Source: a virus. From it: 59,153 nucleotides of DNA. The notes beneath the pieces were generated by a model. That model made no database searches. It saw only the letters and a list, made by a program, of their open reading frames with translations, and was not told where the DNA came from. How positions within the stretch are numbered: position 1 is the first letter of the stretch; every line of letters starts with the position of its first letter. This document shows, piece after piece, positions 2,583 through 57,473 of the stretch. Both the position numbers and the translations under genes were made by a program. The stretch covers positions 1 through 59,153 of IMG/VR virus record IMGVR_UViG_3300017917_002520; one strand, given 5' to 3'.

Positions 2583-3395
2583 ATGATTTCAGTAAATGAA
2601 GAATTTTATTCATCACCTTATTACTTTTTCCTTAGAGATAAAGGGGATAAATACTCTCTATATTTCTCTGTAGAGGAAACATTAAGTGAGGCTCGTAAAA
2701 AAGATGAAGTAATCCACTTTGATAAGAAAAAAGGGAAAAAAGTTAAAAATTATTTAGAAAAAATCGCAAAAGAAAAAAAGAAAAAATCAACCAAAACAAT
2801 AAAAACTGATTTGGAAGAATTGGTTAATTCTGATGGTGCGATGTCAAATTCTGCAATTCCAATTTTAGACCCTAGACTTCATCCTAAGAAAACTATGGAC
2901 CAAACAATTGCCATGGCTAGTATCACAAATGACCCTATTTCTCGTGGTTATAGAACATATTATGGTGAATCAGTGGAAGAAATTGAAGAGATTGATATGT
3001 CAGGAGCTTTCGGTTATGAAGAAACTGAAGATATGGATGGTAAAGATACTTTCAAATTTTTAGTTAAAAATATGGGTATGGAACCGGATGATGCAAAGGA
3101 AAGAACAAAACAACAAGGTAAAGACCCTTCAGGTAAAAAAGACAAAAAATCAAAATATTATAAAGACCCTAATTTTATAACAAGAGCAACATTATCTGAG
3201 ATTCAAAAACAAAAAGCAATTAAAGTGGTTGAAGATATGTTGGCAAAAAAGAAAAGTTCAGATTCTGCCGACATTAATAAAAAAGATGTTGAAGTTTCAA
3301 GAATGTTAAAAAGAAACTTATCTGTATTAAAAAAACAGGCGGAAAAAGAAGGTGTTTCATTATCGGAATTAATTAAAATGTTAAAACGTGAATAA
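2583..3395 (+). CDS. Conserved phage hypothetical, Lys/Glu-rich
   Basis: 270 residues, highly charged, with no signal peptide or membrane segment. The N-terminal 50 residues (FYSSPYYFFLRDKGDKYSLYF) look folded. Then come a Lys-rich linker (KEKKKKSTKTIKTDLEEL), an acidic middle (ESVEEIEEIDMSGAFGYEE) and a Lys-rich C-terminus predicted to be helical. It starts a run of four tightly linked genes; its stop overlaps the GTG start of the next gene. I do not recognise a function. The charge pattern and the candidate late promoter would fit a virion or assembly protein. Confidence 0.7.
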   Translation: MISVNEEFYSSPYYFFLRDKGDKYSLYFSVEETLSEARKKDEVIHFDKKKGKKVKNYLEKIAKEKKKKSTKTIKTDLEELVNSDGAMSNSAIPILDPRLHPKKTMDQTIAMASITNDPISRGYRTYYGESVEEIEEIDMSGAFGYEETEDMDGKDTFKFLVKNMGMEPDDAKERTKQQGKDPSGKKDKKSKYYKDPNFITRATLSEIQKQKAIKVVEDMLAKKKSSDSADINKKDVEVSRMLKRNLSVLKKQAEKEGVSLSELIKMLKRE

Positions 3396-3864
3396 AGATT
3401 TATATAATTCACCCAAGGGAGAAATTGAGTTTCCTAATGATAAAAGGGAACATATGAAAAAATGTTTTCATATGGTGAAGGGCGCGGATGAAAATACTGA
3501 AGGATTTAATAGAAATAAAGAATTACAGACTCAAAAATTCATTGATTACAAACAATTAAAAAGAATAAAAAACTTTTTTGATAATTTTAAAGGAAAACAC
3601 ACCGACCCTTCATTTATTTTAAATGGTGGTGTTGAAATTAAAAATTGGGTTAATGATGAATTAAGAAAAATGAGGGAATACGGACATCTAACAAAAAGAA
3701 ATAAAATGGATGCCGGAATGCAAAACGCATTTATTAAACCTCATGAGAAAAAAGATTTTACTAATGTAAGAAAATCTCAAGAACATTCTAAAACCGTTGA
3801 AAGATATAATGAGGCGGTTACCGAAAGTTTAAGAAGAATAAATGAAATAATGTTAAAATTATAA
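3388..3864 (+). CDS. Conserved phage hypothetical
   Basis: 158 residues from a GTG start that overlaps the previous stop (GTGAATAA), which implies translational coupling. The protein is basic and mostly helical. Recognisable blocks are DYKQLKRIKNFFDNF, LNGGVEIKNWV and ESLRRINEI near the C-terminus. I recall similar blocks in other marine T4-type phages, without known function. The next gene begins two bases after this stop. No catalytic motif is visible. Confidence 0.7.
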   Translation: MNKDLYNSPKGEIEFPNDKREHMKKCFHMVKGADENTEGFNRNKELQTQKFIDYKQLKRIKNFFDNFKGKHTDPSFILNGGVEIKNWVNDELRKMREYGHLTKRNKMDAGMQNAFIKPHEKKDFTNVRKSQEHSKTVERYNEAVTESLRRINEIMLKL

Positions 3865-3866
3865 TT

Positions 3867-4166
3867 ATGGCAAACGAAATTGTAGTAGATTTATCACAAA
3901 ATGTTGAAAATCAATTAACGGCAATTGCTGAAATGGAAAGAGCAAAGTTAATACCTAAAAATGACTATAACGCAGTAGGTAATGAATATTCATCTGTGAA
4001 TCGAGATGCAGTTGCGGACGGTGATTCAATGGGTAGAGGAACTGGGTCATTTCTTGATGTTTACAATGTTAATGCAGGGACAGTAACTGACATCACTGAA
4101 AGAAAAAATGAAATAAAAATTAATAAGTTTAATTCATCTAATACTTATCCGAACTTCCAACTATAA
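3867..4166 (+). CDS. Small hypothetical protein
   Basis: 99 residues, with no cysteines and no membrane segment. The N-terminus (MANEIVVDLSQNVENQLTAIAEMERAK) is predicted helical and the rest is Asn/Ser/Asp-rich and probably extended. Its stop overlaps the next ATG (TAATG-type junction at 4164-4168), so it is coupled to the WYL-like gene. A small structural or assembly component is possible. Confidence 0.6.
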   Translation: MANEIVVDLSQNVENQLTAIAEMERAKLIPKNDYNAVGNEYSSVNRDAVADGDSMGRGTGSFLDVYNVNAGTVTDITERKNEIKINKFNSSNTYPNFQL

Positions 4167-4798
4167 TGAAATTACAAAACTCTCTTAAAAGTTTAATATT
4201 GGAAATTGCTTCAATCGAAACGGTTATTGACGCAATTAAAAATAAACGAGTGATGGGAACCAGTTATGATGGTGACGAACCGGGTGGTAAAGGTCAACGA
4301 CTTATCGAACCTGTTTGTGTCGGTATCAGTAAAGCAGGTAACCGAGTTGTTCGTGCTTGGGAGAGAGAAGGTGCGTCTCACACCGCGACTATTGGTAGTC
4401 AACCACTACCGGGATGGAGATTATTCAGATTAGATAAAACATTTACATTTTTACCAACATCGGAAACTTTTAATGAAATGAGACCAGGGTTTAATCCAAA
4501 TGGTGATAAAAGTATGGTTTCAATTGAAGCAATCGCTAATTTTTCGACACCTGCAAATCCTACAATCATACCACCACAATTCCAAACACCAAGTGTTGAT
4601 TCAATTATTGATAACACAATTAAAACATTAAATGATGAATTCACCAAAAAGTATGGTGAAGAAGGTTTTGATTTATCAAAATCTGCAGAAGCATTTAAAA
4701 GAATATATTCATCAATTGAATCCGGAACTAATAAAAAATTAACGGATTCTGAAAAAAATAATTTAAGAACAACAATAACAAACAAACTAAATCAATAA
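4166..4798 (+). CDS. WYL-like domain protein with leucine-rich N-terminal helix
   Basis: 210 residues. Residues about 20-95 resemble a compact WYL/SH3-like beta domain: IDAIKNKRV, then RLIEPVCVGISKAGNRVVRA, then LPGWRLFRLDK. This fold is best known as the effector-sensing part of WYL regulators, but here there is no DNA-binding domain. The N-terminus (LKSLILEIASIE) is a short amphipathic helix with an I-L-E step, comparable to the leucine-rich tags on other proteins here. The C-terminal half is helical. Regulatory or structural roles are both open. Confidence 0.5.
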   Translation: MKLQNSLKSLILEIASIETVIDAIKNKRVMGTSYDGDEPGGKGQRLIEPVCVGISKAGNRVVRAWEREGASHTATIGSQPLPGWRLFRLDKTFTFLPTSETFNEMRPGFNPNGDKSMVSIEAIANFSTPANPTIIPPQFQTPSVDSIIDNTIKTLNDEFTKKYGEEGFDLSKSAEAFKRIYSSIESGTNKKLTDSEKNNLRTTITNKLNQ

Positions 4799-4860
4799 TT
4801 TAAAACATAATAGTGACAAACTAATAAGTTTTATTATGATTATAGTAAATTTTTAATATT

Positions 4861-5472
4861 ATGAGTGATTTAATGGCAAAATTAGCCCAATCAAACGCAA
4901 GGGCTTTAATGACAAACGACATAAAACCAAGTAGAGGAGATTCCTTTTCAACCCCAACTATGGATAATTTTGACATGCCAAATGTAAAATACAATATACC
5001 TCAAGAATTTTTACAAGAAAGTCCATCTCAAGTACAAACTCCGTATCTTTCATCTTTACCGGTTGAAAACACAAAACCTGTTGGGGTTCCTACTGTGGAT
5101 GCTATTAAAAATTCAAAACTTCCTGACGAGATAAAAAAACTTATGATGGAACACCCAATCTCTCAACCTCAACAACAATCACCAACATTATCAAATGATT
5201 TAATTGAGAGAGCATCAAGATTAATGGGTAATCAACCAAAAAATAATCCAATTACGGAAACCGAAAAAAAACAATCACCAACTCAACAAACATCAAATAC
5301 AGGGATTGATTATAAATTAATTCAAAAAATGATAAATGAGGCAGTTACTAAAGCATTAAAAGAAAATGGTTTAATAACCGAAAGTACTGAAAAATCAAAT
5401 GAAAGTTTTTCATTTAAAGTTGGAAAACATGTATTTGAAGGTAAAGTAACAAAAATTAAAAAATTGTCCTAA
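4861..5472 (+). CDS. Hypothetical protein, Pro/Gln-rich with C-terminal helix and beta domain
   Basis: 203 residues. The first 130 are low in order and rich in Pro, Gln and Ser (PISQPQQQSPTLSND). A helix follows (IDYKLIQKMINEAVTKALKENG), then a small beta C-terminus (FSFKVGKHVFEGKVTKIKKL). This layout suits a phage assembly or virion protein with a disordered N-terminal arm. It follows a 62-base AT-rich gap in which I see no clear promoter. Function unknown. Confidence 0.6.
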   Translation: MSDLMAKLAQSNARALMTNDIKPSRGDSFSTPTMDNFDMPNVKYNIPQEFLQESPSQVQTPYLSSLPVENTKPVGVPTVDAIKNSKLPDEIKKLMMEHPISQPQQQSPTLSNDLIERASRLMGNQPKNNPITETEKKQSPTQQTSNTGIDYKLIQKMINEAVTKALKENGLITESTEKSNESFSFKVGKHVFEGKVTKIKKLS

Positions 5473-5527
5473 CCACTTTCTTTCTACGACATAAATTATT
5501 ATATTTTAGTGAATATAATATAAAACT

Positions 5528-6739
5528 ATGTCAAAAATAAAAGTATTAGTAGTCCCTTCAGACAGAACGGGAGTTGGTAAATTCAGGTCAGTTGACCCTC
5601 ACATTTTCTTACAAAATCTATATGGTGATGATTTCCATGTTGATATTGTCTATGAGCCATCATATGATGATATGAATTTTTGGAAACAATATCAAATAGT
5701 ATCTTTCCACAGAAGTATTGGACCTGATTTTGAAAGAGCACATCAATTAATCAATACCTTAAACAGTATGGACATTATCACTGTATGTGATATTGATGAT
5801 TATTGGATGCCCGGAAAAGAACATCCAATCCACGATGTTATCATGTTTAATAAAATAAACGAAAAAATTACCGCAAATCTTAAAATTGCAAAATATGTTA
5901 CAACCACAACAAGTTTATTTGCAGATGAAATTAGAAAAATAAACAAAAATGTTTTTGTAATACCAAACGCGATTAACCCTAATGAACCTCAATTTAAAGA
6001 ACCTACATTAGAGTCAGATAGATTAAGAATTGGGTGGTTAGGTGGTTCTTCTCACTTACATGATATTCAATTACTTAATGACTCATTCAGTAAATTAGTA
6101 AGTCATAAAGACAAATTACAATATGTTCTTTGTGGATTCGACACTCGCGGTACTGTAACTGAAATTAATTCTCAAACAGGTGAACACAAAAAAAGAGAAA
6201 TTAAACCTGAAGAAACTGTTTGGGCTCAATATGAAAAAATATTCACACAAAATTATAAAATAATCTCAGAAGATTACACCAAACATCTATTAAATTATAA
6301 TCAGGAATCTTTTGCAAATGAGATGAATGAATCTTATTTAAGAGTGTGGACAAAACCTGTAACTTCTTACGCCAAAAATTATTCAAAATTTGATGTATCT
6401 TTGGCACCAATTAAAAATCATATGTTTAATAGAATGAAATCTCAATTAAAAGTGATTGAGGCAGGATTCTATAAAAAAGCATTAATTGCTTCAAACATTG
6501 GTCCATACACTTTAGACTTAAAACATTGTCTTAAAAATGGAGAATTTGTCGATGGTAATGCAATGTTAGTCGATGAATCAAGAAACCACTCTGATTGGTC
6601 TAAAAACATTGAGAAATTAATGAAAAACCCGAACTTAGTAATAGACATGGGAGAGAGATTATACGAGACCGTAAAAGACAAATACGACTTAAATATAGTA
6701 ACAAAATCAAGAGCAGAATTTTATAAATCAATATTATGA
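5528..6739 (+). CDS. GT4-type (group 1) glycosyltransferase
   Basis: 403 residues, GT-B style. The N-terminal half holds alternating strands such as KIKVLVVPSDRTGVGKFR and IVSFHRSIG, plus CDIDDYW. The C-terminal half starts at RIGWLGGSSHLHDIQLL, a usual opening for the GT4 donor-binding domain, and later has EAGFYKKALIASNIGPY and a closing MGERLYETVKDKYD helix. It would transfer a nucleotide-activated sugar. It opens a long operon of sugar genes and overlaps the next start by four bases. Donor and acceptor cannot be read from sequence. Confidence 0.8.
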   Translation: MSKIKVLVVPSDRTGVGKFRSVDPHIFLQNLYGDDFHVDIVYEPSYDDMNFWKQYQIVSFHRSIGPDFERAHQLINTLNSMDIITVCDIDDYWMPGKEHPIHDVIMFNKINEKITANLKIAKYVTTTTSLFADEIRKINKNVFVIPNAINPNEPQFKEPTLESDRLRIGWLGGSSHLHDIQLLNDSFSKLVSHKDKLQYVLCGFDTRGTVTEINSQTGEHKKREIKPEETVWAQYEKIFTQNYKIISEDYTKHLLNYNQESFANEMNESYLRVWTKPVTSYAKNYSKFDVSLAPIKNHMFNRMKSQLKVIEAGFYKKALIASNIGPYTLDLKHCLKNGEFVDGNAMLVDESRNHSDWSKNIEKLMKNPNLVIDMGERLYETVKDKYDLNIVTKSRAEFYKSIL

Positions 6740-16745: not shown

Positions 16746-17495
16746 ATGAATCAAAAACCATCAAGAGGGGGTAAACCAAAAATAACTCCTACACCTACAA
16801 CTGAAAAAATAAAAAATAAAACAGTTAAGGAAATTATTTGTTCAATCGTTAAAAAGAAAACTAAACAAAAATTTTTAACAACAAATCAAAAAAAATACTA
16901 TGACACTTTAATTGATAGTGAAATTACAATTTGTTCAGGACCGGCCGGTGTAGGTAAAAGTTATATTACCATGAAAGCGGCAATTGATTTAATATCAGAC
17001 CCTGAAACACCTTATGAAAAAATAATAATTGTAAGACCCGCGGTTGAAGCTGAAGAGAAATTAGGTTCATTACCCGGAAATGTAGAAGAAAAATTAGACC
17101 CTTATATCTTTCCTTCTTATTATTTGATGAATAAAATTATTGGTAAAGAGGCTAGAGAAGAATTAAAAAATTTAGATATTATTGAAGTTTTCGCACTAGC
17201 GTTTATGAGAGGTATGAATATTGACAACTCTATTTTAATTTTTGAAGAGGGTCAAAATGCAACCCCAAGTCAAATGAAATTATTACTAACTCGTATTGGA
17301 TTTAACAGTAAATTTTTCATTTCAGGAGATGTTGAACAATCTGACAAATTCAAAAACAAAACTCATAGTGGTTTATACGACGCAATTGAAAAATTTAGAA
17401 ATGATAGTGATATTTCAGTTTTTGAATTCACGGATGAGAAAGATATTGTAAGAAATAAATTAATTAGTAAAATATTAAAAAAATACGAAGAATGA
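16746..17495 (+). CDS. phoH: PhoH-like ATPase
   Basis: 249 residues. Walker A is SGPAGVGKSY near residue 64. Walker B is SILIFEEGQN, where the more usual FDEAQN has become FEEGQN. IIVRPAVEAEEKLGSLPG and LLTRIGFNSKFFISGD are hallmark PhoH blocks. The first 45 residues are a basic tail. PhoH-like proteins are common in T4-type and marine phages, where their function is debated (RNA-linked ATPase or phosphate response). It overlaps the next start by four bases. Confidence 0.9.
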   Translation: MNQKPSRGGKPKITPTPTTEKIKNKTVKEIICSIVKKKTKQKFLTTNQKKYYDTLIDSEITICSGPAGVGKSYITMKAAIDLISDPETPYEKIIIVRPAVEAEEKLGSLPGNVEEKLDPYIFPSYYLMNKIIGKEAREELKNLDIIEVFALAFMRGMNIDNSILIFEEGQNATPSQMKLLLTRIGFNSKFFISGDVEQSDKFKNKTHSGLYDAIEKFRNDSDISVFEFTDEKDIVRNKLISKILKKYEE

Positions 17496-25204: not shown

Positions 25205-26707
25205 ATGTCAATTTTAAGGTCATACATAGATAAAAACAACACCATCATTTCAGATTCATATGTTAATACAGGAAGAAACCCTGTTATTGAACTGAATTTT
25301 GGTGCGTCAGATTTAATAGTTCCAAATTTTGGATACACAAGATATATCTTCGATTTAGATTTATCATTATTAGAACAAAACATTCAATCAGGTGTAATTT
25401 CAACCGGATGTACTTCGGCAATGACACACACATTGAAAATGACAAATACCTCTTCATTCGATAATGAATTATTAAATACTTTCATGACAAACGAAAGAAG
25501 AAGAGCAACTTCATTTGATTTAATATTATTTAGAATTCCACAAATTTCCGGTACAACAGGGGGAAGTCAATCTTGGGATGAGGGTGTTGGATACGATTAT
25601 AGTAATTTTAACATTACTCAAAATAGCCCAACAGGTTCCCTAACCCCATTAACATATGTGGATAGTAGAGCATATTCAAACAGACCTTCCAACTGGTACC
25701 AAACAACAACTATCAGTAATTGGTCAGAACCCGGAATTTACAACAACAAGAATCAAGGAGTTGTTAATTATTCAGGTTTGACAATTGTCGCACAACAACA
25801 TTTTGAATTAGGTAATGAAGACCTGAATATGGATATGTCGGATGAAATCAATGGAGTATTAAATGGTACTATTACCGGTGTTACAGGTTGGGGTCTTGCG
25901 TATTTACCTCAAATCGAAAACATCACCGGATTAACCGATAGTTATAGTGTTGCATTTTTCTCAAGACATACCCAAACATTCTATCAACCTTTTTTACAAA
26001 CAACATATGATGATTTAATTCAAGATGACCGAAATCAATTTTTAAAGAATCAAGAAAATAAATTATACTTATATGTTTATCAAAATGGTGATTTGGTCAA
26101 TTTAGATTCGGACCCATATGTTAGAATTGAAGATAGGGATGGTGTTGCCGTTAGTGGTATGTCAAGATTAGACACTTGTTTAAGAACTAAAGGAGTTTAT
26201 GAAGTAATAGTACCGAATGGGTTTACAGGAAGTCCATCACCATGTCTTTTCTATGATGTTTGGTCAGGTCTAACAATTAACGGACAAAATATTCCAAACG
26301 TAAGAAATCAGTTTGTTTTACAAGAATACTCAGCAGGAATCCAAATTGGTTCAGTATCTAAAGAACCTCAAAAATATGGATTTAATTTCTATGGTATTTT
26401 ACAGAATGAACAAATACTGAATACCGATATTAGAAAAGTTGGAGTAACAATTAAAAAGGCGTATACCGGTCAGCAATTACTATTAGATGTTTCAGCATAT
26501 TATAGAGTTTATGTTAAAGAAGGAACTACCGAAGTTTTAGTTCAAGATTGGACCCCTATCAATAGAACACCAACTGAATATTATTTTATGTTTGATATGA
26601 GAGATAAAATACCAAATCAATATTATGTAGATATTCAAGTGAATACTTCAGGTGAAAAAGATACTTATAAAAAACAATTAACATTTAATATCGTAAACAC
26701 AAAATAA
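25205..26707 (+). CDS. Virion structural protein, beta-rich
   Basis: 500 residues, rich in Thr, Ser, Gly and aromatic residues and predicted mostly beta. It starts SILRSYIDKNNTIISDSY. A repeated beta-strand pattern runs through the centre (WSEPGIYNNKNQGVVNYSGL). An Ig-like end (TSGEKDTYKKQLTFNIV) closes it. No catalytic residues are recognised. Its stop codon overlaps the ATG of the tagged protein that follows. Likely a tail or baseplate wedge protein or a fibre base. Confidence 0.6.
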   Translation: MSILRSYIDKNNTIISDSYVNTGRNPVIELNFGASDLIVPNFGYTRYIFDLDLSLLEQNIQSGVISTGCTSAMTHTLKMTNTSSFDNELLNTFMTNERRRATSFDLILFRIPQISGTTGGSQSWDEGVGYDYSNFNITQNSPTGSLTPLTYVDSRAYSNRPSNWYQTTTISNWSEPGIYNNKNQGVVNYSGLTIVAQQHFELGNEDLNMDMSDEINGVLNGTITGVTGWGLAYLPQIENITGLTDSYSVAFFSRHTQTFYQPFLQTTYDDLIQDDRNQFLKNQENKLYLYVYQNGDLVNLDSDPYVRIEDRDGVAVSGMSRLDTCLRTKGVYEVIVPNGFTGSPSPCLFYDVWSGLTINGQNIPNVRNQFVLQEYSAGIQIGSVSKEPQKYGFNFYGILQNEQILNTDIRKVGVTIKKAYTGQQLLLDVSAYYRVYVKEGTTEVLVQDWTPINRTPTEYYFMFDMRDKIPNQYYVDIQVNTSGEKDTYKKQLTFNIVNTK

Positions 26708-27168
26708 TGAAAAAGATAATTAAACTTACAGAATCAGATTTAAATAAACTTGTAAAAAAAGTCCTTCAAGAACAAGAAGTTGCTGATTACATGTTTTTTA
26801 GTAATCTACAACAAATTAAAAGACAATGTGAAATGTTGTTAGAATTAGACCCTCAACAAATCGATGAAATTTTAAATGATGGTGGACATGATTGGGCAGA
26901 TGACCATATAACTGAAGCTAAAAATAATATGGACCAAGTTTTTGATTTTTTAATGAATGAAACTAAGAAAGAATTTATTGATTACGAACCAGTAATGGAA
27001 GGTAAGAAAAAAACAGGTACAAAATTATGTGCTCGTGGATTAGCAGCTGCAAAAGGAAAGTTTAAAGTCCACCCAAGCGCATATAGTAATGGTTATGGGG
27101 TTCAAGTGTGTAAAGGAACCAAACCGGGTCTTGACGGGAAGAAAAAATGTTCACCACCTTATTGTTAA
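26707..27168 (+). CDS. Tagged small protein with N-terminal LTESDL tag and Cys-rich C-terminal module
   Basis: 153 residues. Residues 1-25 begin MKKIIKLTESDLNKLVKKVL followed by QEQEV. This tag is shared with the peptide at 54373-54477 and the protein at 56277-57410. Residues L20-Q21-E22 form an LxE site of the kind cut by T4-type prohead proteases. The C-terminal module (KLCARGLAAAKGKFKVHPSAY, cut to LCARG...PSAYSNGYG here) is one I recall in other phage virion proteins, with Cys at VCKG, KKCSPPYC. Ends at a terminator. Proposed: packaged virion protein; function unknown. Confidence 0.65.
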   Translation: MKKIIKLTESDLNKLVKKVLQEQEVADYMFFSNLQQIKRQCEMLLELDPQQIDEILNDGGHDWADDHITEAKNNMDQVFDFLMNETKKEFIDYEPVMEGKKKTGTKLCARGLAAAKGKFKVHPSAYSNGYGVQVCKGTKPGLDGKKKCSPPYC

Positions 27169-27201: not shown

Positions 27202-27233
27202 ATCTTTTAATGTTTTCCCGTATATTTATTAGT

Positions 27234-27728
27234 ATGGGAAAACAATGTAATAAATGCGGGCAAATAAAAGATAACTCTGAGTTTTATGAAACTCAAAGAG
27301 GTAATAAATGTAAACAATGTTTTTTAGAAATTACGAGAGAAAGTAAAAGAAAAAAAAGACAAGACCCTGATTTTAGAAAACAAGAAGGTATTAAACAAAA
27401 AGAGAGAAGAATTCGATTATGGGAAAATACATTACTAAACGATTCTAAACATCGTAAAGGAATTGAACACAATTTAACTGTGAAAGACATTAAAGAACTT
27501 TTTATAAAACAAAAAGGTAGATGTTACTGGTTTAATATTCCATTAATACCTTCATCTAATAAAAAAGACCCTCAACAACCTTCTTTAGATAGATTAGATA
27601 ATAATAAAGGTTACACTAAAGATAATGTAGTATTAACTTGTTATTCCGCAAATATCGGTAGAAATGATAATGATAAGAATAGATGGGAAAACTTCATTAA
27701 ACTATTAAAAGAAAATTTATCACAATAA
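27234..27728 (+). CDS. HNH-type homing endonuclease-like protein
   Basis: About 164 residues from ATG 27234; the ATG at 27210 overlaps the terminator T-run. An N-terminal zinc finger-like C-x2-C pair (CNKCGQIKDNSEFYE, then CKQC) is followed by a basic linker. The HNH-like core is GRCYWFNIPLIPSS and PSLDRLDNNKGYTKDNVVLT with a Cys. The first His is not clearly seen, so activity may be reduced. It stands between the tail operon and the TonB receptor gene and may mark a mobile insertion. Confidence 0.7.
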   Translation: MGKQCNKCGQIKDNSEFYETQRGNKCKQCFLEITRESKRKKRQDPDFRKQEGIKQKERRIRLWENTLLNDSKHRKGIEHNLTVKDIKELFIKQKGRCYWFNIPLIPSSNKKDPQQPSLDRLDNNKGYTKDNVVLTCYSANIGRNDNDKNRWENFIKLLKENLSQ

Positions 27729-27760
27729 AAAACCCCCACTTTAAATGGGGGTTTTATTTT
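27729..27760. terminator. Bidirectional terminator between HNH and TonB receptor genes
   Basis: Stem AAAACCCCCA / TGGGGGTTTT with A- and T-runs on the two sides. It can stop both converging transcripts. Confidence 0.85.
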
Positions 27761-27776: not shown

Positions 27777-30479
27777 TTAGAAGTTGTAACGTAAAGATAC
27801 ATTCCATGTTCTACCTAATCCGAAGAAACCTTGATTACCATCCGCAATTCCGTTATAAACTCTACCGTTTGATTGATAAGTACCTAAAGATGGATTTGAC
27901 GAACTAATGTTGTCTGTTGTTTTAATATTACTTGATAATTCAGATAAATAAACTTCGTCAAATACGTTATTAACATTTACTCTTAAAGTTAAATTATCTT
28001 TTTTATTTTTTCCTAATAATAATTTATAAGAAACACCAGCGTCAACTAAATCATATGTTGGTAATAATAAATTGTCTTTAACCGCGCCAACACTTGCATA
28101 TAACTTGTCATAAGTTCTCCAATCAGCATCAACAGATAAACCTCTTAATACTTCATATTTTGCACCTAACCCCCAAGTAGTTTGAGCAGCGTCACCAACT
28201 TTACCACCATCAACATCAACTAAAGTTTCTGTTAATACATTTTGATTTTCATCAATTTGTCTTGTAATTGAACTACCGTTGTATTCCCAATTTCCGATAG
28301 ACGCAAAACCTTTAATATCTAATTTTGTTGTCGGTTTAACAATAAAATCAACCTCTACACCTGAGTGAATTTGTTCTACACCTAAATTAGACTTATAAAC
28401 TAAATCACCTTGAGTTAATACTGTGGTTCCAATTGTTTCAGTTGGTAAAGTAACTACTCTTGATGATGAAACAACTCTATCTTTCCAAGAAGTTCTGTAT
28501 GCATTAACACTACCACTAATAAATTTAGATTTGAATGTATATCCACCCTCTAAACCAAATATTTTTTCATTTGATGTTAATGGGTTTACTTCATTAGTAA
28601 AATTTAAATAAATGTTATCATGATATGGTTGACGAGAATATAATCCTGTATTTACATAAAACGAGTGTTTATCATTAATTGTATAACTACCACCAGCTTT
28701 AAGGTTATATCCTAAATTTTCAACTTTTTCAGATTTTTCATATTCCGGTAAGTAATCATATCTGTCAAATCTAACATGAGTTTGATTTGATAATGAACCT
28801 TGTACGAATGCAGAAAAATTATCTTTACTATATTCTAATTGTCCAAATATACCACCATAGTTAATTGTTTCACTATAATCATAATCGATTCTTTGAGATT
28901 CACTTAAATTGTTAAATGATGCACCCCATGGATTTGTTGATAATGATTCGGTTACTGTTTGTAACACATTACTACCTTGCATTTGATGGTTAGAACCTCT
29001 TAATCTTCTTGAATCAGTAAAATTTGTTAAACCTAAAAAGTTATTAACTTGTCTGTAATGTGTACCATCGTAAGTTCTTAAATCAACACCTAAATTTAAA
29101 TTAAGGTTTTCAGTTAATTTTGTATTAAGATTAGATACCACACCATACCAAGAATGGTTATTCATTGATGACCTAATTAAATAACTATTAGCAAAAGTTC
29201 CTGCTCCGTTAGCAATTGCACTATTGTTAGCGTAAATTTGGTCAAAGTCAATATAAGTGTTTTGAACTTGGTTAGTATAAGGATTTAATTCTGTTTTGAA
29301 TTTTTTGTTCCCTGACGCACCATAGTTTCCTGTTCCACCACCTCTACCCCAAGATGCATATAACACGGTAGATAAGTTAGTTTTTTCACTAATCTTGTAA
29401 TCCCAGTTAATATTCGCAACCGGTTTGTGATAGAAGTTTACTCTTTCAGATAAAAATTGTCCGTTTAAATAACCATAGTTGTTATTGTACTTTCTACCGA
29501 ACCCTAAATAATCTGAAATTCTTTTACTAAAGTTTTGGTTGTGCCATTGTGGTGCACCTGTAATTAAGAAGTTAAAATTATGTTTGTCATTCAATTTATA
29601 TCCTAAAGAGATAAAATAATTTTGACCTTGTCCTTGAGTTCCGTCATTAAATCCATCACCTTGCCAATGAGAGAACATTGTTGTAACTGCAAGTCCGTTT
29701 TTCATTAAACCGGTACTATATGTCGCAGTAGTTTTTAGATAGTTATCATTACCAACATTAGTTGAAACGAAACCACCTTCTCTTTTATCAATAGTTTTAG
29801 TGATAAAGTTCACAGTACCTCCAACTGATGAAATAGCCAATTTAGACGAACCTAAACCTCTTTGGATTTGAATTGCATTTGCAATATCTCCCATACCTGA
29901 CCAGTTTGACCAATACATCTTACCATCTTCCATACCATTAATTGGTTGTCCGTTTAATAAGAATGCTGTGTTATCTTGTTGGAATCCACGAACTGAAATT
30001 CTTGAATCACCAAAACCTCCTGATTGTCCTGCAACATAAATAGATGGTGTGTTAACCAATGTCTGTGTAATGTCATTAGAACCGATTTTAGCCTGTATCT
30101 CAGCCATTTTAATGGTAGACACCGCAATAGGTGTTTTACGACCTTGAGCAACGTCAATTACCCCTTTACCAACAACAACTACCTCAGCCAATGAATTTTC
30201 TTCAGGATTTAACGAAATAAGAACATTTCCACCGTTAACAGTGTATTGTCTTTTTCCGTAACCCAAATAAGATACTGAAATAACATCATTAGTTTTTGCG
30301 GTCTTTAATTCGAACTCTCCTTCAAGACCTGTGGTTGTATGTTCAGTTTTAAATTGAACATGAGCCCCGACCAATGGTTCATTTGTAGATTGGTCAACTA
30401 CCTTTCCTTTTGTTTGGGAGAAAGCCCCCAACGAAAATGCTAATGTTAATAGCAATGCTCCGATAAACTTTGTTTTCAT
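27777..30479 (-). CDS. TonB-dependent outer membrane receptor
   Basis: 900 residues, full length for the family. Signal peptide MKTKFIGALLLTLAFSLGAF, then a CarboxypepD_reg-like domain (residues 25-105: KGKVVDQSTNEPLVGA). A TonB-box-like EVVVVGKGVIDVA follows near residue 98, then a plug (ISVRGFQQDNTAFLLNGQPI; IQRGLGSSKLAISSVGGTVN) and a long beta barrel ending in an aromatic RYNF. This family imports siderophores, cobalamin or glycans through the outer membrane using TonB. No SusD-type partner is present, and the ligand is not readable from the sequence. A phage carrying it is unusual. Its downstream end meets the HNH gene tail to tail. Confidence 0.92.
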   Translation of the reverse strand: MKTKFIGALLLTLAFSLGAFSQTKGKVVDQSTNEPLVGAHVQFKTEHTTTGLEGEFELKTAKTNDVISVSYLGYGKRQYTVNGGNVLISLNPEENSLAEVVVVGKGVIDVAQGRKTPIAVSTIKMAEIQAKIGSNDITQTLVNTPSIYVAGQSGGFGDSRISVRGFQQDNTAFLLNGQPINGMEDGKMYWSNWSGMGDIANAIQIQRGLGSSKLAISSVGGTVNFITKTIDKREGGFVSTNVGNDNYLKTTATYSTGLMKNGLAVTTMFSHWQGDGFNDGTQGQGQNYFISLGYKLNDKHNFNFLITGAPQWHNQNFSKRISDYLGFGRKYNNNYGYLNGQFLSERVNFYHKPVANINWDYKISEKTNLSTVLYASWGRGGGTGNYGASGNKKFKTELNPYTNQVQNTYIDFDQIYANNSAIANGAGTFANSYLIRSSMNNHSWYGVVSNLNTKLTENLNLNLGVDLRTYDGTHYRQVNNFLGLTNFTDSRRLRGSNHQMQGSNVLQTVTESLSTNPWGASFNNLSESQRIDYDYSETINYGGIFGQLEYSKDNFSAFVQGSLSNQTHVRFDRYDYLPEYEKSEKVENLGYNLKAGGSYTINDKHSFYVNTGLYSRQPYHDNIYLNFTNEVNPLTSNEKIFGLEGGYTFKSKFISGSVNAYRTSWKDRVVSSSRVVTLPTETIGTTVLTQGDLVYKSNLGVEQIHSGVEVDFIVKPTTKLDIKGFASIGNWEYNGSSITRQIDENQNVLTETLVDVDGGKVGDAAQTTWGLGAKYEVLRGLSVDADWRTYDKLYASVGAVKDNLLLPTYDLVDAGVSYKLLLGKNKKDNLTLRVNVNNVFDEVYLSELSSNIKTTDNISSSNPSLGTYQSNGRVYNGIADGNQGFFGLGRTWNVSLRYNF

Positions 30480-30503
30480 TTAAATTTAATTTTGGTTTAT
30501 AAT

Positions 30504-30536
30504 AAAAAAGTCCCGAAGACACTTGTCCTCGAGACC
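30504..30536 (-). terminator. Terminator-like hairpin in the leader of the TonB receptor gene
   Basis: On the minus strand a 12-base-pair stem (GGTCTCGAGGAC / GTCTTCGGGACT with four GU pairs) with loop AAGT is followed by six T. It lies about 25-55 bases upstream of the receptor ATG. There is no other minus-strand gene to terminate between here and 31141, which has its own terminator. It is therefore a candidate attenuator, or a stabilising 5' hairpin. Confidence 0.55.
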
Positions 30537-30598
30537 TTTGTTATATTCGATTTAATAAATAATTCTTCGTATATTTCATAATTAATTTTTATACCTTG

Positions 30599-30607
30599 AT
30601 AAATATA
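30599..30607 (-). promoter_or_regulatory. Candidate late-type element upstream of TonB receptor
   Basis: TATATTTAT on the minus strand, about 120 bases upstream of the receptor ATG and above the hairpin. It matches the element seen before structural genes. Confidence 0.3.
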
Positions 30608-30656
30608 ACTAAAACTAACCAAAAAGTAAAATTCAATTATTATTTTTTTGTAAAAT

Positions 30657-30706: not shown

Positions 30707-31144
30707 ATGTTAAAATTTATCAAAAGAAAATTAAAACGAAGAGCAGTTCGAAAAAAATTATTAGAACTTAAACTATTTTATGATGTAGTTGACCCGAATA
30801 AATTAGCAGACATTAATGACTGTAAATTTATTTTTCGTAACGCATTGAAACACCCTAATTCAATTTATGAAATAGCACCGTTATCTTCTCACAGATTAAT
30901 TGAAAATAAAAAATTAGGTGTGTTTGTAATTTTAGACGATAAAAAAATAACCATAATTAACCACGTATGTTATTATAGTAATATTTCTATGACCGATAGG
31001 GATTGGAATAAGATGGTTAATATGTTTGATAATAAAGTACAAGAAAACCGAATGAGAAGAATTGAACAAATGAAATCTCAAGTAGAATATTCTCTTTCAA
31101 AATTAAAAAACAGAATTGTACAAAAAACAAAACCCCAAATTTAA
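30707..31144 (+). CDS. Hypothetical, basic N-terminus, own host-type promoter
   Basis: 145 residues. The N-terminus is very basic (MLKFIKRKLKRRAVRKKLLE). A compact centre follows (IAPLSSHRLIENKKLGVFVILDDKKITIINH), then a helical end. It is monocistronic, with a host-type promoter and a bidirectional terminator, so it could be expressed early in infection. No family is recognised. A nucleic-acid or host-directed role is speculation from its charge. Confidence 0.65.
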   Translation: MLKFIKRKLKRRAVRKKLLELKLFYDVVDPNKLADINDCKFIFRNALKHPNSIYEIAPLSSHRLIENKKLGVFVILDDKKITIINHVCYYSNISMTDRDWNKMVNMFDNKVQENRMRRIEQMKSQVEYSLSKLKNRIVQKTKPQI

Positions 31145-33559: not shown

Positions 33560-33594
33560 AAAAGGGTGGTTAAATACAACCACCCTCTATTTTA
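33557..33594. terminator. Terminator between convergent genes
   Basis: GGGTGGTT / AACCACCC stem followed by a T-rich stretch, after the stop at 33559. It overlaps the end of the minus-strand gene at 33570-34691. Confidence 0.7.
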
Positions 33595-34691
33595 AATCCT
33601 GTAGAACCCATTCCCTTACCACCAATAGGTGCATAAACAAAAAACAAATTATTCCCTTTACTTGCATCATATATAAGTTCATAAGGTGAATTTCTTTTTT
33701 CATATAATACGAATTCACGAACACCTGAATTGAATTGGTCCAATAAATTTTTAAAACCAAGTGATACTTCACCTGTATTGGAGTATTGGTTTAATACCGC
33801 CAATAACTTGTCAATATTTTTTTTATTAACTAAGTCCAAAATAATTTTTTTTACTTTTTCGTCTTTAAAAATTAACGAAATTAATTCCTCAACAGATGAC
33901 ACTGTTTTAGTAATTATTTTACTACCACTAACTGCCGGGGATTTTTGGTTATATATTTTAGTTAAACTATCAACCCATGCAGGTATATAATTTATTTTAT
34001 CGTCCATATATAATTCTGTAGACACATACCCAGTGTCTAATGTTATTTGTTTTTGTGTGTCAGTAACAATTAATCTATCAGGCATAGTACCTGTATAAAA
34101 ACTCAATTTACCTTTATCACTTAAAACATTTTTATATTTTGGGGGTAAAATAGCTATGTAATTATTTACCTGAGAACCTTGAACCCCTTCGTATTTAATA
34201 TCAAATTTACACTTTTCAGCAGAAAGAGATAAAGTCACATACTGATATTTTGTATATTCAGGATTATTACTACCTTTCGAACTATTCCATTCCGGACCTT
34301 GAGCTCCTAAATCATTAATTTTAACCGATATTTTATCACCTAATTTTGATTTAATATATTTTTCAACTTCTGAAGCTCTCAATTTAGATAAATCACCAGG
34401 TTTTAAACCAACACCTTTATTTGGCACTTTTGATTCTGACGAATTAATCACAATAGTATTAAAAGAACCCTTACCTGTTTTCAAGAATTCATTAATTTTA
34501 CTTATCGCATTATCGATTTCAGTTGTATTTGTTAATTGATATTTCCCACTTGGAAACGAATTTGAAATATTAAATTTTATAGGTTCCGTAACATCTTCTT
34601 TAATTAAATAAAGTTTTTTAGTTGCAGTTTCATGAAGATTCAAAATTCTATTTTTTTCATCTTCATTTATATTCCATGTTTGTTTTATCAT
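33570..34691 (-). CDS. OmpA-like protein with N-terminal NRILNLHE tag
   Basis: 373 residues. Residues 8-24 (NINEDEKNRILNLHETAT) form a tag nearly identical to that of the 54483-55352 protein, also at DNA level. It is followed by LIKE, an IxE cleavage-like site at E32. Residues about 70-150 resemble the OmpA C-terminal peptidoglycan-binding fold: VINSSESKVPN, LKPGDLSKLRASEVEKYI. The rest is of unknown fold. It lies just downstream of the capsid gene. Proposed: peptidoglycan-binding virion cargo. Confidence 0.6.
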   Translation of the reverse strand: MIKQTWNINEDEKNRILNLHETATKKLYLIKEDVTEPIKFNISNSFPSGKYQLTNTTEIDNAISKINEFLKTGKGSFNTIVINSSESKVPNKGVGLKPGDLSKLRASEVEKYIKSKLGDKISVKINDLGAQGPEWNSSKGSNNPEYTKYQYVTLSLSAEKCKFDIKYEGVQGSQVNNYIAILPPKYKNVLSDKGKLSFYTGTMPDRLIVTDTQKQITLDTGYVSTELYMDDKINYIPAWVDSLTKIYNQKSPAVSGSKIITKTVSSVEELISLIFKDEKVKKIILDLVNKKNIDKLLAVLNQYSNTGEVSLGFKNLLDQFNSGVREFVLYEKRNSPYELIYDASKGNNLFFVYAPIGGKGMGSTGFKIEGGCI

Positions 34692-51541: not shown

Positions 51542-53557
51542 ATGAACGACTTAATGGACGACAACGAAAAATCAGGTGGTAAAGCACAAAAACAGGCAGT
51601 TGATAGTAACACTCCTGTATTAGACAACTTCAGTAGAGATTTGAACAAATTGGCTCAAGAAGGAAAATTAGACCCTGTTATTGGTAGAGACGCCGAGATT
51701 TTGAGAATTGCTCAAATCCTTTCTCGTAGAAAGAAAAATAACCCTATTATTATTGGTGAACCTGGTTGTGGTAAAACCGCACTTGTTGAAGGTCTTGCCA
51801 TGAAAATTGTTAGTGGGGAATGTCCAAGAAACTTGGTAGATAAAAGAATCGTTAATCTTGATTTAACTTCGGTGGTTGCCGGTACAAAATATCGTGGTCA
51901 ATTCGAAGAAAGAATGAAAGTGATTATCGAGGAATTAAGAGACAACCCAAACATCATTGTATTCATCGATGAAATCCATACCTTGGTAGGTTCAGGTAAT
52001 TCATCAGGTTCAATGGATGGTTCAAACATCTTCAAACCAGCTCTTGCTCGTGGTGAAGTTCAATGTATTGGTGCAACAACTCTTGATGAGTTCCGTAAAA
52101 ACATTGAAAAGGATGGAGCATTAGAGCGTAGATTCCAAAAAGTTGTGGTAGAACCATCAACTGTGGAAGAAACAATCCAAATTCTTAAAAATGTTCGTGA
52201 TAAATACGAATCATACCACAAGGTATTATATAGTGACGAAGTTGTTGAAACTTGTGTTAAATTAGCTGACCGATATATTACGGACCGTGAGTTCCCGGAT
52301 AAAGCATTCGACATCATGGATGAGGTTGGGGCGAGAATGCAAACCGAAGTTAAAGTTCCTGAAATTATCGAGGAATTGAAAAAGAAAGCTGCGGAGATTA
52401 AAGTTGAGAAAATGGAAGTAGTTAAAAAACAAAACTACGAACAAGCAGCTCAACTTAGAGATAAGGAGAAAAAGTTGTTAATTAAACTTGAGGCAGAAAA
52501 AGAAAAATTCGCAAAACAAATGGACTTGGAAAAACAAACTATTGTTTTGGAAACCGTGTATCAAGTTGTTTCAAGTATGACTAAGATTCCTGTGAATAAA
52601 ATGGATGCTGACGATTCTAAGGCATTAATGAACTTGGATAAATCAATCATGGGTAAAGTAATTGGTCAGGATGCTGCGGTTGTTAAAATCGCAAAATCAA
52701 TCAAGAGAAATCGTTTAGGTATTAAAGACCCTAACAGACCTATCGGTTCATTCATCTTCTTAGGTTCAACCGGTGTTGGTAAAACTCACTTGGCAAAACA
52801 ATTGGCGAAAGAAATGTTCGGTAGTGAAGATTCATTAATCCGTGTGGATATGTCTGAATACCAAGAGAAACACACCGTATCTAAATTGGTTGGAGCACCT
52901 CCGGGATATGTTGGATATGAAGAAGGTGGTTTATTAACTGAAAAAGTTAAAAACAAACCATACTCTGTAATCTTATTTGATGAGGTGGAAAAAGCTCATA
53001 AAGATGTCTTTACCGTATTACTTCAAATCTTAGATGATGGACATGTAACCGATAGTTTAGGTAGAAAGATTAACTTCAAAAATACCTTGATTATCTTAAC
53101 ATCAAACTTGGGGGTTAAGAAATTACAAGATTTCGGAACTGGTATTGGTTTCTCAAATGGTTCATACGCAGATGAAGAAGCTAAGAAAGATATTCTTATG
53201 AAAGAAATGAAAAATTTCTTCTCACCTGAATTCATCAACCGTATTGATGATACAATCGTATTCAACTCATTGACTCCTGAGGACATTGAGAAAATCACAG
53301 AAATTGAATTATCTAAATTGATGACTCGTCTGAGTGAAATGAAATACAATGTTACATATGACAATGATGTTGTAAAATATTTGGCTAAGGTCGGATTTGA
53401 TGAAATATACGGAGCAAGACCATTAAAAAGAGCAATCCAAGATAAAATTGAGGATTTATTGTCTGAGGAAGTATTAACCGGAAAAATGGTTGAGGGTAAA
53501 ACCTATAACTTAAAGATGGATGGTGAAGAAATCAAAATAACCAAAAAAGGTAGATAA
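51542..53557 (+). CDS. ClpC-type AAA+ unfoldase lacking the N-domain
   Basis: 671 residues, where host ClpC has about 820-850; the repeated N-domain that binds adaptors is replaced by about 30 disordered residues. First ATPase: GEPGCGKTA (72-80), VFIDEIH (140-146). A UVR-like coiled-coil segment (VVKKQNYEQAAQLRDKEKKL, about 294-313) lies between the ATPase domains. Second ATPase: GSTGVGKTH (408-416), ILFDEVEK (477-484). The IGF loop at 535-537 fits the ClpP-docking tripeptide. It would unfold proteins into host ClpP. Confidence 0.88.
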   Translation: MNDLMDDNEKSGGKAQKQAVDSNTPVLDNFSRDLNKLAQEGKLDPVIGRDAEILRIAQILSRRKKNNPIIIGEPGCGKTALVEGLAMKIVSGECPRNLVDKRIVNLDLTSVVAGTKYRGQFEERMKVIIEELRDNPNIIVFIDEIHTLVGSGNSSGSMDGSNIFKPALARGEVQCIGATTLDEFRKNIEKDGALERRFQKVVVEPSTVEETIQILKNVRDKYESYHKVLYSDEVVETCVKLADRYITDREFPDKAFDIMDEVGARMQTEVKVPEIIEELKKKAAEIKVEKMEVVKKQNYEQAAQLRDKEKKLLIKLEAEKEKFAKQMDLEKQTIVLETVYQVVSSMTKIPVNKMDADDSKALMNLDKSIMGKVIGQDAAVVKIAKSIKRNRLGIKDPNRPIGSFIFLGSTGVGKTHLAKQLAKEMFGSEDSLIRVDMSEYQEKHTVSKLVGAPPGYVGYEEGGLLTEKVKNKPYSVILFDEVEKAHKDVFTVLLQILDDGHVTDSLGRKINFKNTLIILTSNLGVKKLQDFGTGIGFSNGSYADEEAKKDILMKEMKNFFSPEFINRIDDTIVFNSLTPEDIEKITEIELSKLMTRLSEMKYNVTYDNDVVKYLAKVGFDEIYGARPLKRAIQDKIEDLLSEEVLTGKMVEGKTYNLKMDGEEIKITKKGR

Positions 53558-54482: not shown

Positions 54483-55352
54483 TTAATATTTGACTTTTAA
54501 TTTCATTATTTTATTTTTTGAGTTATTTTTCCAAGTTTCAAAATACTTAACAAAATCATTCATCTGATTTAATAAATCGATACACCCTATTGAACCTGGA
54601 ATTCCTCCCCCATGAATATAAAAACTACCTCTACCAAAAGTTTCAGTTTCACCAAATTTAGTTATCGGTAATCTATAATCACCCCAAGCCACAAAATCAC
54701 TTTTGGTTCCGGTATTCCAATTATGTCCTTTATCATTCATCATAATATCATAAAGTTCTTTATCCGATTTTTTTTGGATAAAATCTGTGGCATTACCATT
54801 TGTTCGTTTTTGTATTTGACTAACAGTATAATCACCTGCAGGTATTGGTCCTTGTTCTTTTATTTTCATAAACTCAGCATTCTTACCACCATATTTTTTA
54901 ACAAGTTGTTCTGAATTTTTATCACCAAAAGTATTAAATTTAGTTCTACCTGAAACCGCATTCCAAGATTTAACTATTTTTCCATTTTTAAACCATTTTA
55001 ATTTACTACCGTCAAATAATAGATAATCAGATTCAATATTAGATGCATTTTTTTTATCGTTTTCAATTTTATTTACCGGTTGATTTACTTTATTACCTTT
55101 GTCAGTTGTAATTTTAAAAATTTTTGTATCTATTGCTTTAGTTTGATTAGGATTCGCCTCAGTCCAATTAGTTTCACCTTTCTTAACATTTCTAAAAAAG
55201 TATTTACCATCCTTTTTCATATATTCATAAGGGTCACCCATCTCTCCTTTTTTAATTTCTTGTTCAGGTAAATATTGACGATTAGTTGCCGATTCATGAA
55301 GATTTAAAATTCTATTTTTTTCTTCTTCCGGTATATTAAATAAATTTGACAT
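54483..55352 (-). CDS. Tagged DUF2778-type L,D-transpeptidase-like protein
   Basis: About 289 residues from ATG 55352; a start at 55379 would add a hydrophobic leader that is probably not translated. Residues 8-22 (PEEEKNRILNLHESAT) are the same tag as on the OmpA-like protein, followed by YLPEQ with an LxE site at E30. The catalytic domain follows: LFDGSKLKWFKNGKIVKSW, KEQGPIPAGDYTVSQ, and RGSFYIHGGGIPGSIGCIDL with His and Cys as expected for DUF2778/Tlde1-like L,D-transpeptidases. It would modify peptidoglycan cross-bridges or stems. Confidence 0.7.
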   Translation of the reverse strand: MSNLFNIPEEEKNRILNLHESATNRQYLPEQEIKKGEMGDPYEYMKKDGKYFFRNVKKGETNWTEANPNQTKAIDTKIFKITTDKGNKVNQPVNKIENDKKNASNIESDYLLFDGSKLKWFKNGKIVKSWNAVSGRTKFNTFGDKNSEQLVKKYGGKNAEFMKIKEQGPIPAGDYTVSQIQKRTNGNATDFIQKKSDKELYDIMMNDKGHNWNTGTKSDFVAWGDYRLPITKFGETETFGRGSFYIHGGGIPGSIGCIDLLNQMNDFVKYFETWKNNSKNKIMKLKVKY

Positions 55353-55367
55353 AATATTCAGTTTAAA

Positions 55368-55377
55368 TATAAATATC
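55368..55377 (-). promoter_or_regulatory. Candidate late-promoter element GATATTTATA
   Basis: GATATTTATA on the minus strand, 15 bases before the ATG of the tagged transpeptidase, the same ten bases as at 31866-31875. Confidence 0.4.
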
Positions 55378-55378
55378 A

Positions 55379-55411
55379 ATAAAAAAAAAAGAGACCTAAA
55401 TGGTCTCTTTT
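55379..55411 (-). terminator. Terminator after the M20 peptidase gene
   Basis: AAAGAGACC / GGTCTCTTT stem with T-run on the minus strand, between the peptidase stop and the tagged transpeptidase promoter. Confidence 0.85.
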
Positions 55412-56276: not shown

Positions 56277-57410
56277 TTAATATGTATCTTCAAAGTCAAA
56301 TAAAGAATTTTGGTATAAAAATTTGTTAAAATTTTCCTCACTTAATTTTAACTTTTTAACACTTTTACCATTATTTGGTGTGACATTAACTTTAACTTTT
56401 AATTCATTTGGTTCAAATCCAACTATTATAAATTTGGTCGATTTATCTCTTGGAAGTTCATGCCAAACACCTTGTTTGAATCTTTTCAAGATATTATTTC
56501 TAAGTGAAATATATTGATTAATTTCATTTGAGTCACCCTCTTCTAATTTTTCAATAATTGAATTCAAATGTCTTGCAACATCATAATTATATGATTTAAA
56601 GTCAAAATTTTTATCATCATGATATTCATATTGGTCTTCATACCAATTCCCAATATTTCCGGTATTTGATTGAATCAAACTTGACAACATCTCTCGAGCA
56701 TTCTCATTAAATAAATTTAATTGTAATGCGTTTGAATATAAATCAGCAACACTTATTTCAAATTCATCCATATCATAATCATCGGTAATATCAACCCCAA
56801 TAGATTCCAAAACATCATTAAATTCTTTTTTAACATATTCTAATGCAGTTTTATTCATTTCTCTATTTTTCTCCACCTCAAATTCACTTAAAATATAATC
56901 CATCTCTTTTTCAAACATTTCCAATAATAAACCGTTAAGTTCGATTCTGTAATTTTCCTCATTTAATGTAAATGGTTTGTTGGGTATCAAAATTTCACCA
57001 ATAATTTTCAATCTATCTTTATTATCATCATCTATATCATCCCACACACCATAACCTTGTTGAAAATCGTCATTAATTGTATATGAATCCATAAAGTCAT
57101 ACCCATCATATGAATGTAATAAACGATAAAACCATATGTCATCTTCTGATAAACCAATCTCACTAGAAAAATCATTAGAATCCTCATATTTGATTATTAT
57201 AATTGATTGACCCAACGGGTCACGAGTTTCAATAAGTTTTATAGTATCATCTATATCATATAATTCATCTTTAGATATTTTACCACGAGAAAATGCCCTT
57301 AATCCAAGTAAAGTGTTCATTTTAGGAGTATCTTCTTGGTCCTGTTCGGTTTGAATAACTCTTCGAATAATATGTTTAAGGTCTGATTCTGTTAGTTTTA
57401 CAACTCTCAT
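56277..57410 (-). CDS. LTESDL-tagged hypothetical protein
   Basis: About 377 residues from ATG 57410; an upstream start at 57455 is less likely. Residues 1-22 begin MRVVKLTESDLKHIIRRVIQ, matching the tag on the 26707 protein and the 54373 peptide. The body is acidic and helical (DYILSEFEVEKNREMNKTAL; DDYDMDEFEISVADLYSNAL), ending with a small beta segment. No known domain recognised. The shared tag suggests the same fate as the other tagged proteins. Confidence 0.6.
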   Translation of the reverse strand: MRVVKLTESDLKHIIRRVIQTEQDQEDTPKMNTLLGLRAFSRGKISKDELYDIDDTIKLIETRDPLGQSIIIIKYEDSNDFSSEIGLSEDDIWFYRLLHSYDGYDFMDSYTINDDFQQGYGVWDDIDDDNKDRLKIIGEILIPNKPFTLNEENYRIELNGLLLEMFEKEMDYILSEFEVEKNREMNKTALEYVKKEFNDVLESIGVDITDDYDMDEFEISVADLYSNALQLNLFNENAREMLSSLIQSNTGNIGNWYEDQYEYHDDKNFDFKSYNYDVARHLNSIIEKLEEGDSNEINQYISLRNNILKRFKQGVWHELPRDKSTKFIIVGFEPNELKVKVNVTPNNGKSVKKLKLSEENFNKFLYQNSLFDFEDTY

Positions 57411-57426
57411 TAAAATATATTTTACA

Positions 57427-57434
57427 ATAAATAC
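57427..57434 (-). promoter_or_regulatory. Candidate late-promoter element GTATTTAT
   Basis: GTATTTAT on the minus strand, 16 bases before the ATG at 57410. It diverges from the tmRNA promoter. Confidence 0.4.
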
Positions 57435-57442
57435 TTTTTTTG

Positions 57443-57473
57443 TTTGGAATTTCAATATTTATGTTTATCTTTG
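57443..57473 (+). promoter_or_regulatory. Bacteroidetes-type promoter of the tmRNA gene
   Basis: TTTG at 57443-57446 and TATCTTTG at 57466-57473, spaced 19 bases. It ends 14 bases before the tmRNA 5' end, so the primary start would be near the mature end. Confidence 0.8.

Follow-up and report, generated by a model that had tools for sequence, protein, structure and literature searches.

In the present study, a complete TonB-dependent receptor (TBDR) was found at a fixed site in the genome of a T4-type phage. The window, that is, the whole stretch of DNA analysed here, is an IMG/VR contig of 59,153 bases. Judged from its phylogeny, the phage TBDR is derived from a core chromosomal, pgi-linked receptor of Flavobacterium, and its codons carry the mark of strong purifying selection, which is strongest in the plug. 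We give about an even chance to the reading that, in the infected cell, it imports the ligand of the host receptor in a TonB-coupled manner.

The window contig is marked as T4-type by its gp23, portal, large terminase and head protease genes. Flavobacterium phage immuto is among its closest cultured relatives when the major capsid proteins are compared (42% across about 56% of the protein), and from this we infer a flavobacterial host, probably freshwater Flavobacterium-like bacteria. The window also encodes a Clp-like ATP-dependent protease (51542-53557; phrog_4871, E 2e-239), a glycosyltransferase (5528-6739; phrog_7162) and a PhoH-like gene (16746-17495; phrog_170).

The receptor ORF (27777-30479, minus strand, as are all its parts given below) encodes 900 amino acids without interruption, and it was recognised by Pfam, by the barrel of its AlphaFold2 (AF2) model and by its presence on six further IMG/VR contigs with 85-97% amino acid identity. 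The signal peptide (residues 1-22, MKTKFIGALLLTLAFSLGAFSQ; 30414-30479) and the TonB-box-like motif LAEVVVVG (residues 97-104; 30168-30191) were called by inspection and conservation. The former is kept in every phage copy, and the latter, which lies in a region of low dN/dS, is retained in all six complete copies with A replaced by T or S at one position in some. The CarboxypepD_reg-like N-terminal domain (residues 24-102; 30174-30410) matched Pfam PF13715 (CarbopepD_reg_2) with E 6.5e-13 and the Plug domain (residues 114-222; 29814-30140) matched PF07715 above the cut-off with E 2.8e-12. The remainder (residues 233-900; 27780-29783) was assigned from AF2 secondary structure and Foldseek as an outer-membrane beta-barrel with 11 extracellular loops and, by our own count, 22 strands. 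The AF2 model showed a long-stranded barrel (mean pLDDT 79, pTM 0.75) in which the plug was poorly resolved, with low confidence. These features bear out the first-pass annotation, which had described a full-length receptor. The best solved structures found by Foldseek included FhuA (E 1.8e-27), PqqU, Fiu, BauA and FecA, and the profile neighbours were likewise FhuA, PqqU, BauA, FecA and Cir-type receptors, with weak similarity. A search for a ligand-specific relative among solved structures returned weak, partial matches only.

The receptor occupies the same site in seven contigs including the window, with no frameshift in any of them. Each of the six complete copies is 900 codons long and uninterrupted by a stop, and L007, which is partial, matches L002 perfectly over the part present; the check for decay that had been proposed found no sign of it. 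Wherever both flanks are present, the TBDR sits between homologues of two resident genes. The left one (26707-27168, plus strand) is conserved in relatives with and without the receptor, and the right one (30707-31144, plus strand) shares a recombination tract with the receptor in L002 and L004. The N terminus of the left gene, MKKIIKLTESDLNKLVKKVLQE, is seen again elsewhere in these phages, for example in 56277-57455, and resembles a head-targeting peptide that is cleaved off; when such N termini were sought more widely by motif, too few turned up. Comparison with close relatives, also proposed earlier, gave six other contigs with the receptor and 42 spanning loci without it in relatives found via the capsid protein. 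A clean empty site was obtained by aligning L005 with the receptor-less L166, whose flanks are 95% and 91% identical. Here the insert is made up of the CDS, preceded by about 153 nt of upstream sequence and followed by about 15 nt, and the terminator lying just beyond its end is already present in L166. The boundaries were similar for L003 against L121. In the window, homology to L166 ends at 30639, so that the 5' part of the inserted cassette is a leader of about 160 nt (30480-30639, minus strand).

A bidirectional terminator (27729-27755), detected by scanning both strands and having an equivalent in empty-site relatives, ends both the TBDR and an HNH/endonuclease VII-like gene (27210-27728, plus strand; phrog_3322, E 1e-25). 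The latter gene had been taken as part of a movable unit together with the receptor. It has instead inserted there independently of the receptor, since the receptor occurs without it in L002-L006, it occurs without the receptor in seven relatives (L097, L098, L100, L101, L106, L119 and L160), and only the window has both. The description of the locus as a moron therefore holds for a single-gene cargo that brings its own upstream region and is followed by a terminator, patchy among relatives, and fails for the membership of the HNH gene. The HNH gene could promote recombination at the slot.

Two comparisons bear on exchange at this site. The 111 kb contig L247 (gp23 94%) has a receptor in the same slot as the window TBDR. 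Between L247 and L006, nucleotide identity is 90-100% from -200 to about +40, beyond which it drops to about 60%; residues 1-19 of the signal peptide are the same in both, and the receptor body (L247:7762-10290) differs, with 38% amino acid identity. This body has closer counterparts on further phage contigs (L252 70%, L204 52%, L253 50%). On these alignments, L247 has retained the slot, the putative promoter region, the leader hairpin and the signal peptide, while its receptor body has been swapped. In the phage-like L204, the TBDR lies near queC-like, queE-like, ThyX-like and phosphoribosyltransferase-like genes, as identified by eye. The second comparison is of L002 and L004, in which the DNA around the locus is mostly 72-83% identical but reaches 92.7% over a 4.1 kb tract containing the TBDR and gene 30707. 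Recombination between divergent phages is the best reading of this tract.

The leader contains a terminator-like hairpin with a T-tract (30506-30539, minus strand), about 27 nt 5' of the start codon, which was found by a scan and by RNA folding (-20.8 kcal/mol, z -5.8). This hairpin is found in all copies, with a sequence differing between lineages. From the T-tract to the start codon runs a near-invariant segment, ATTATAAACCAAAA (30480-30505, minus strand), recognised in the alignment as a possible promoter or start region; the exact motif stands upstream of a TBDR in seven of eight viral-contig matches. A search of all viral contigs with CTTTTTTATTATAAACCAAAA returned the known receptor-bearing phages, L247 and one unrelated short contig (L250). 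The hairpin may insulate the TBDR from read-through, with the promoter within the last 26 nt, or alternatively it may be an attenuator. Further upstream, a weak candidate for a phage promoter element, TATATTTATC (30598-30607, minus strand), was picked by eye from the upstream regions and resembles the ATATTTAT elements. The ATATTTAT element recurs shortly 5' of the start codons of many window genes and resembles the T4 late promoter TATAAATA when this is read as its reverse complement. Terminator-like hairpins immediately 5' of the start codon were also seen for the genes at 33570-34691, 54483-55379 and 57939-58361. The two host upstream sequences inspected bore no resemblance to the phage leader, and an Rfam search near the host and phage receptor genes found no riboswitch naming a ligand.

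The phylogeny against host receptors, which the first-pass annotation had called for, places the phage copies in a single clade (SH-aLRT 100) nested in Flavobacterium, and its sister is the receptor of a Lake Loclat MAG (L008; SH-aLRT 95). The gene is therefore host-derived. In the host, pgi was present in 76 of 80 loci, some of them truncated, and a small membrane protein in 68; TDO, M23 peptidase, DUF3108 and HPPD genes lie upstream of the receptor in most loci. The downstream membrane protein (about 140-148 aa, with four His) looked by eye like a b-type cytochrome, but no Pfam family scored above the cut-off and this hint was left aside. No ligand hint was obtained from the host gene neighbourhood. 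The closest bacterial receptor, L008:5911-8424, is without the CarboxypepD_reg domain present in the phage copies. A Flavo-1 sRNA was noted near the host receptor locus (L008:10003-10088 and L014:3847-3988).

The pairwise dN/dS among phage copies was 0.045-0.13 over the whole gene, at a synonymous divergence of up to 0.78, with synonymous sites near saturation in some pairs. By region, the values were about 0.025 for the plug, about 0.075 for the TonB-box region, 0.078 for the barrel and about 0.09 for the extracellular loops, and the least constrained part was the CarboxypepD domain with the periplasmic turns (0.17). Furthermore, 177 of the 181 residues invariant in 51 hosts are retained in all phage copies. 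The loop/barrel divergence ratio was 1.17 among phages (bootstrap 0.77-1.57) and 1.83 among hosts (1.49-2.64; host pairs up to 22% divergence), with loop borders taken from AF2 secondary structure, few phage lineages and two bootstrap intervals that overlap slightly. For the phage against its sister host L008 the ratio was 0.87. Constraint on the loops is no weaker than in hosts, and together with the retained invariant residues this disfavours a diversifying or decoy surface receptor. The selection pattern thus appears to favour a working TonB-coupled importer over an escape variant or a decoy. It should be considered that strong constraint as such would also be expected for a particle receptor or for a released, properly folded surface decoy.

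In the explanation that we favour, a T4-type phage infecting a Flavobacterium-like bacterium acquired the core pgi-linked TBDR of its host, and the receptor was placed as a one-gene cassette of upstream region, leader hairpin and CDS beside a pre-existing terminator. During infection the phage would transcribe the TBDR, and the secretion and Bam machinery of the host would put the protein in the outer membrane. The phage records searched gave no match to TonB_C, so import would depend on the host TonB; powered by host TonB/ExbBD, the receptor would let the infected cell take up more of the same ligand, presumably to the benefit of the phage. This ligand would most likely be a metallophore- or vitamin-like small solute and not a glycan. 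SusD (PF07980) is absent from the window record and from seven other phage records, which makes SusCD-type glycan uptake unlikely. The slot itself is modular, with recombination between relatives and, in one of them, a receptor body exchanged while leader and signal peptide stayed constant.

The first-pass annotation had offered two roles, namely import of a nutrient during infection and replacement or masking of the host receptor. As far as sequence evidence goes, the former is better supported. The latter is disfavoured, since the phage copies retain both plug and TonB box, and their loops change at little more than the pace of the barrel and, in relative terms, more slowly than host loops do. 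In its general form the second role is superinfection exclusion, in which the phage TBDR would displace, outcompete or alter the host receptor, and competing phages or sister virions would fail to adsorb. We regard this as unlikely, together with its corollary that body swaps alter which phages are kept out. Outer-membrane receptors, including TBDRs, commonly serve as phage receptors, the fold matches include FhuA entries with T5 pb5 and with Llp, an exclusion lipoprotein, and presence, absence and body swaps at one slot resemble specificity changes. However, an extra receptor leaves the existing host receptor in place. An escape variant should differ in its loops, but these are conserved among the phages and against the sister host, and the TonB box is retained together with the plug, the most constrained part of all. 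The known exclusion proteins of this kind, Llp and Cor, are small.

A profile scan seeded with the window family recovered 114 stretches encoding relatives, on more than 100 IMG/VR contigs, several of them gp23-positive and up to 297 kb. Phage receptors of this size had been called rare, and this claim could not be upheld. As the survey was seeded by the window query, it is no measure of phage preference for this receptor family. When 48 of the sequences were treed, most fell in one clade (type B), 36-38% identical to the window receptor. Several type-B contigs are gp23-positive and large (252, 276 and 297 kb), and full-length receptors of the family are thus carried by T4-type phages other than the window's group; the remaining contigs, which showed no gp23 in the portion examined, are presumably also of phage origin. 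Contigs bearing type-B and related receptors include L187, L203, L209, L236 and L272, and GroEL/Cpn60-type chaperonins are also encoded by L203 and L209. A regular-expression check for the TonB box in the type-B set flagged 29 of 48, but truncated N termini and the narrow pattern make this count no measure of how frequent the box is. The nearest receptors to type B in Flavobacteriales genomes are 56-72% identical. One match at 60% lies in the same HPPD-DUF3108-TDO-M23-pgi locus as the host gene of the window's own type (type A), which indicates that types A and B were captured separately from one host receptor family. By eye, a recA-like gene adjoins at least two of the matches at 69-72%. Judged from these trees and loci, the capture of TBDRs by T4-type phages has been a recurrent event, with at least two captures from a single host receptor family. 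In addition, 3 of about 28 partial T4-type records not chosen for a TBDR carry one (L251, L407 and L408), of three other kinds. In the sister phage L251 (G012; 2724-6424) it is an unrelated 833-aa TBDR (type D, OMP_b-brl_3 type), and the next gene encodes a predicted lipoprotein of 400 aa with no Pfam match. The L251 receptor lies near a homologue of window gene 57939, a placement similar to that of the type-B receptor in L292.

The origin of two phage receptor lineages in the same host receptor family agrees with a display or decoy role, in which the extra receptor on lysis debris or vesicles would absorb competitor phages or sensitise receptor-less neighbours. The surface loops remain host-like, as faithful display requires. 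The interplay of vesicles and phages, including the gaining of phage sensitivity, is among the topics discussed in PMC12474301. Yet such a role has no requirement for the strong constraint on plug and TonB box, and there was no sign that these phages bind the receptor; we consider it improbable. Because the two lineages share one host receptor family, it is also conceivable, though slightly less probable again, that T4-type phages of Bacteroidota keep a receptor slot in which different host TBDRs are traded behind a constant leader and signal peptide, the receptor being perhaps the one to which these phages themselves adsorb, shown again on vesicles and debris so that neighbours become sensitive.

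That the TBDR is a neutral or transient passenger, a host gene taken up by chance without phage function, is suggested by the patchiness of such single-gene insertions. We hold this to be very improbable in view of a dN/dS of 0.05-0.13 at synonymous divergence up to 0.78, the absence of any broken gene among the six complete copies, the leader conserved across divergent phages and the repeated capture in other phages. An assembly chimera of host and phage DNA was rejected and has next to no probability, as the receptor is a real part of the phage genome at the same site in seven contigs, of which the six beyond the window have different IMG dataset identifiers, with a clean empty site in a 91-95% identical relative and a leader unlike that of the host.

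Metabolic genes of phages are known, and full outer-membrane active transporters have so far been annotations only in the literature searched. Here, such a receptor is described with strong transport-like constraint, an origin in the core host genome, recombination between phages and a body replaceable at a fixed site. If the import reading is true, lytic phages reshape uptake by the infected cell, and the ligand of a core Flavobacteriaceae receptor would indicate a limit on freshwater phage production. If adsorption or exclusion is true instead, phage competition at the host surface could be tested directly on this locus. The open-licence papers searched included no functional study of a phage TBDR.

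The one relevant precedent in these papers concerns the marine megaphage Mar_Mega_1 and LR745206, which have a full-size TBDR annotated as SusC, for which increased carbohydrate uptake during infection was suggested (PMC9723777), and our search of the literature on them found no analysis of slot, swap or selection. The LR745206 receptor is a different protein of 660 aa, 31% identical to the phage TBDR over about 205 aa, and the best BFVD match of the phage TBDR was an uncultured marine phage SusC entry with 13% identity. The SusC/RagA glycan importers of Bacteroidota share the arrangement of CarboxypepD_reg, plug and barrel, with weak profile matches, but the phage TBDR is without a SusD partner in the phage records. 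No SusC/RagA NCBIfam match was obtained, and the only hit was the sub-threshold MxcH (32 against a cut-off of 925 bits). FhuA, FecA, PqqU and Cir have the same fold, with 12-15% identity in structural alignment, which is too low to assign a ligand class. Among the nearest systems is also the pgi-linked Flavobacteriaceae receptor itself (for example that of Flavobacterium fragile, L011, with the same domain order). The phage copy is about 64-76% identical to its nearest hosts (75% for the Loclat MAG) and differs in its upstream region with a leader hairpin, in being without the chromosomal neighbours and in extracellular loops that diverge relatively less. Finally, phage morons and auxiliary metabolic genes are likewise single host-derived genes with their own upstream region and terminator and a patchy distribution, but the cargo here is a 900-aa outer-membrane transporter with an exchangeable body behind a fixed leader and signal peptide. 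A slot in which receptors can be exchanged extends the known theme of auxiliary genes in phages.
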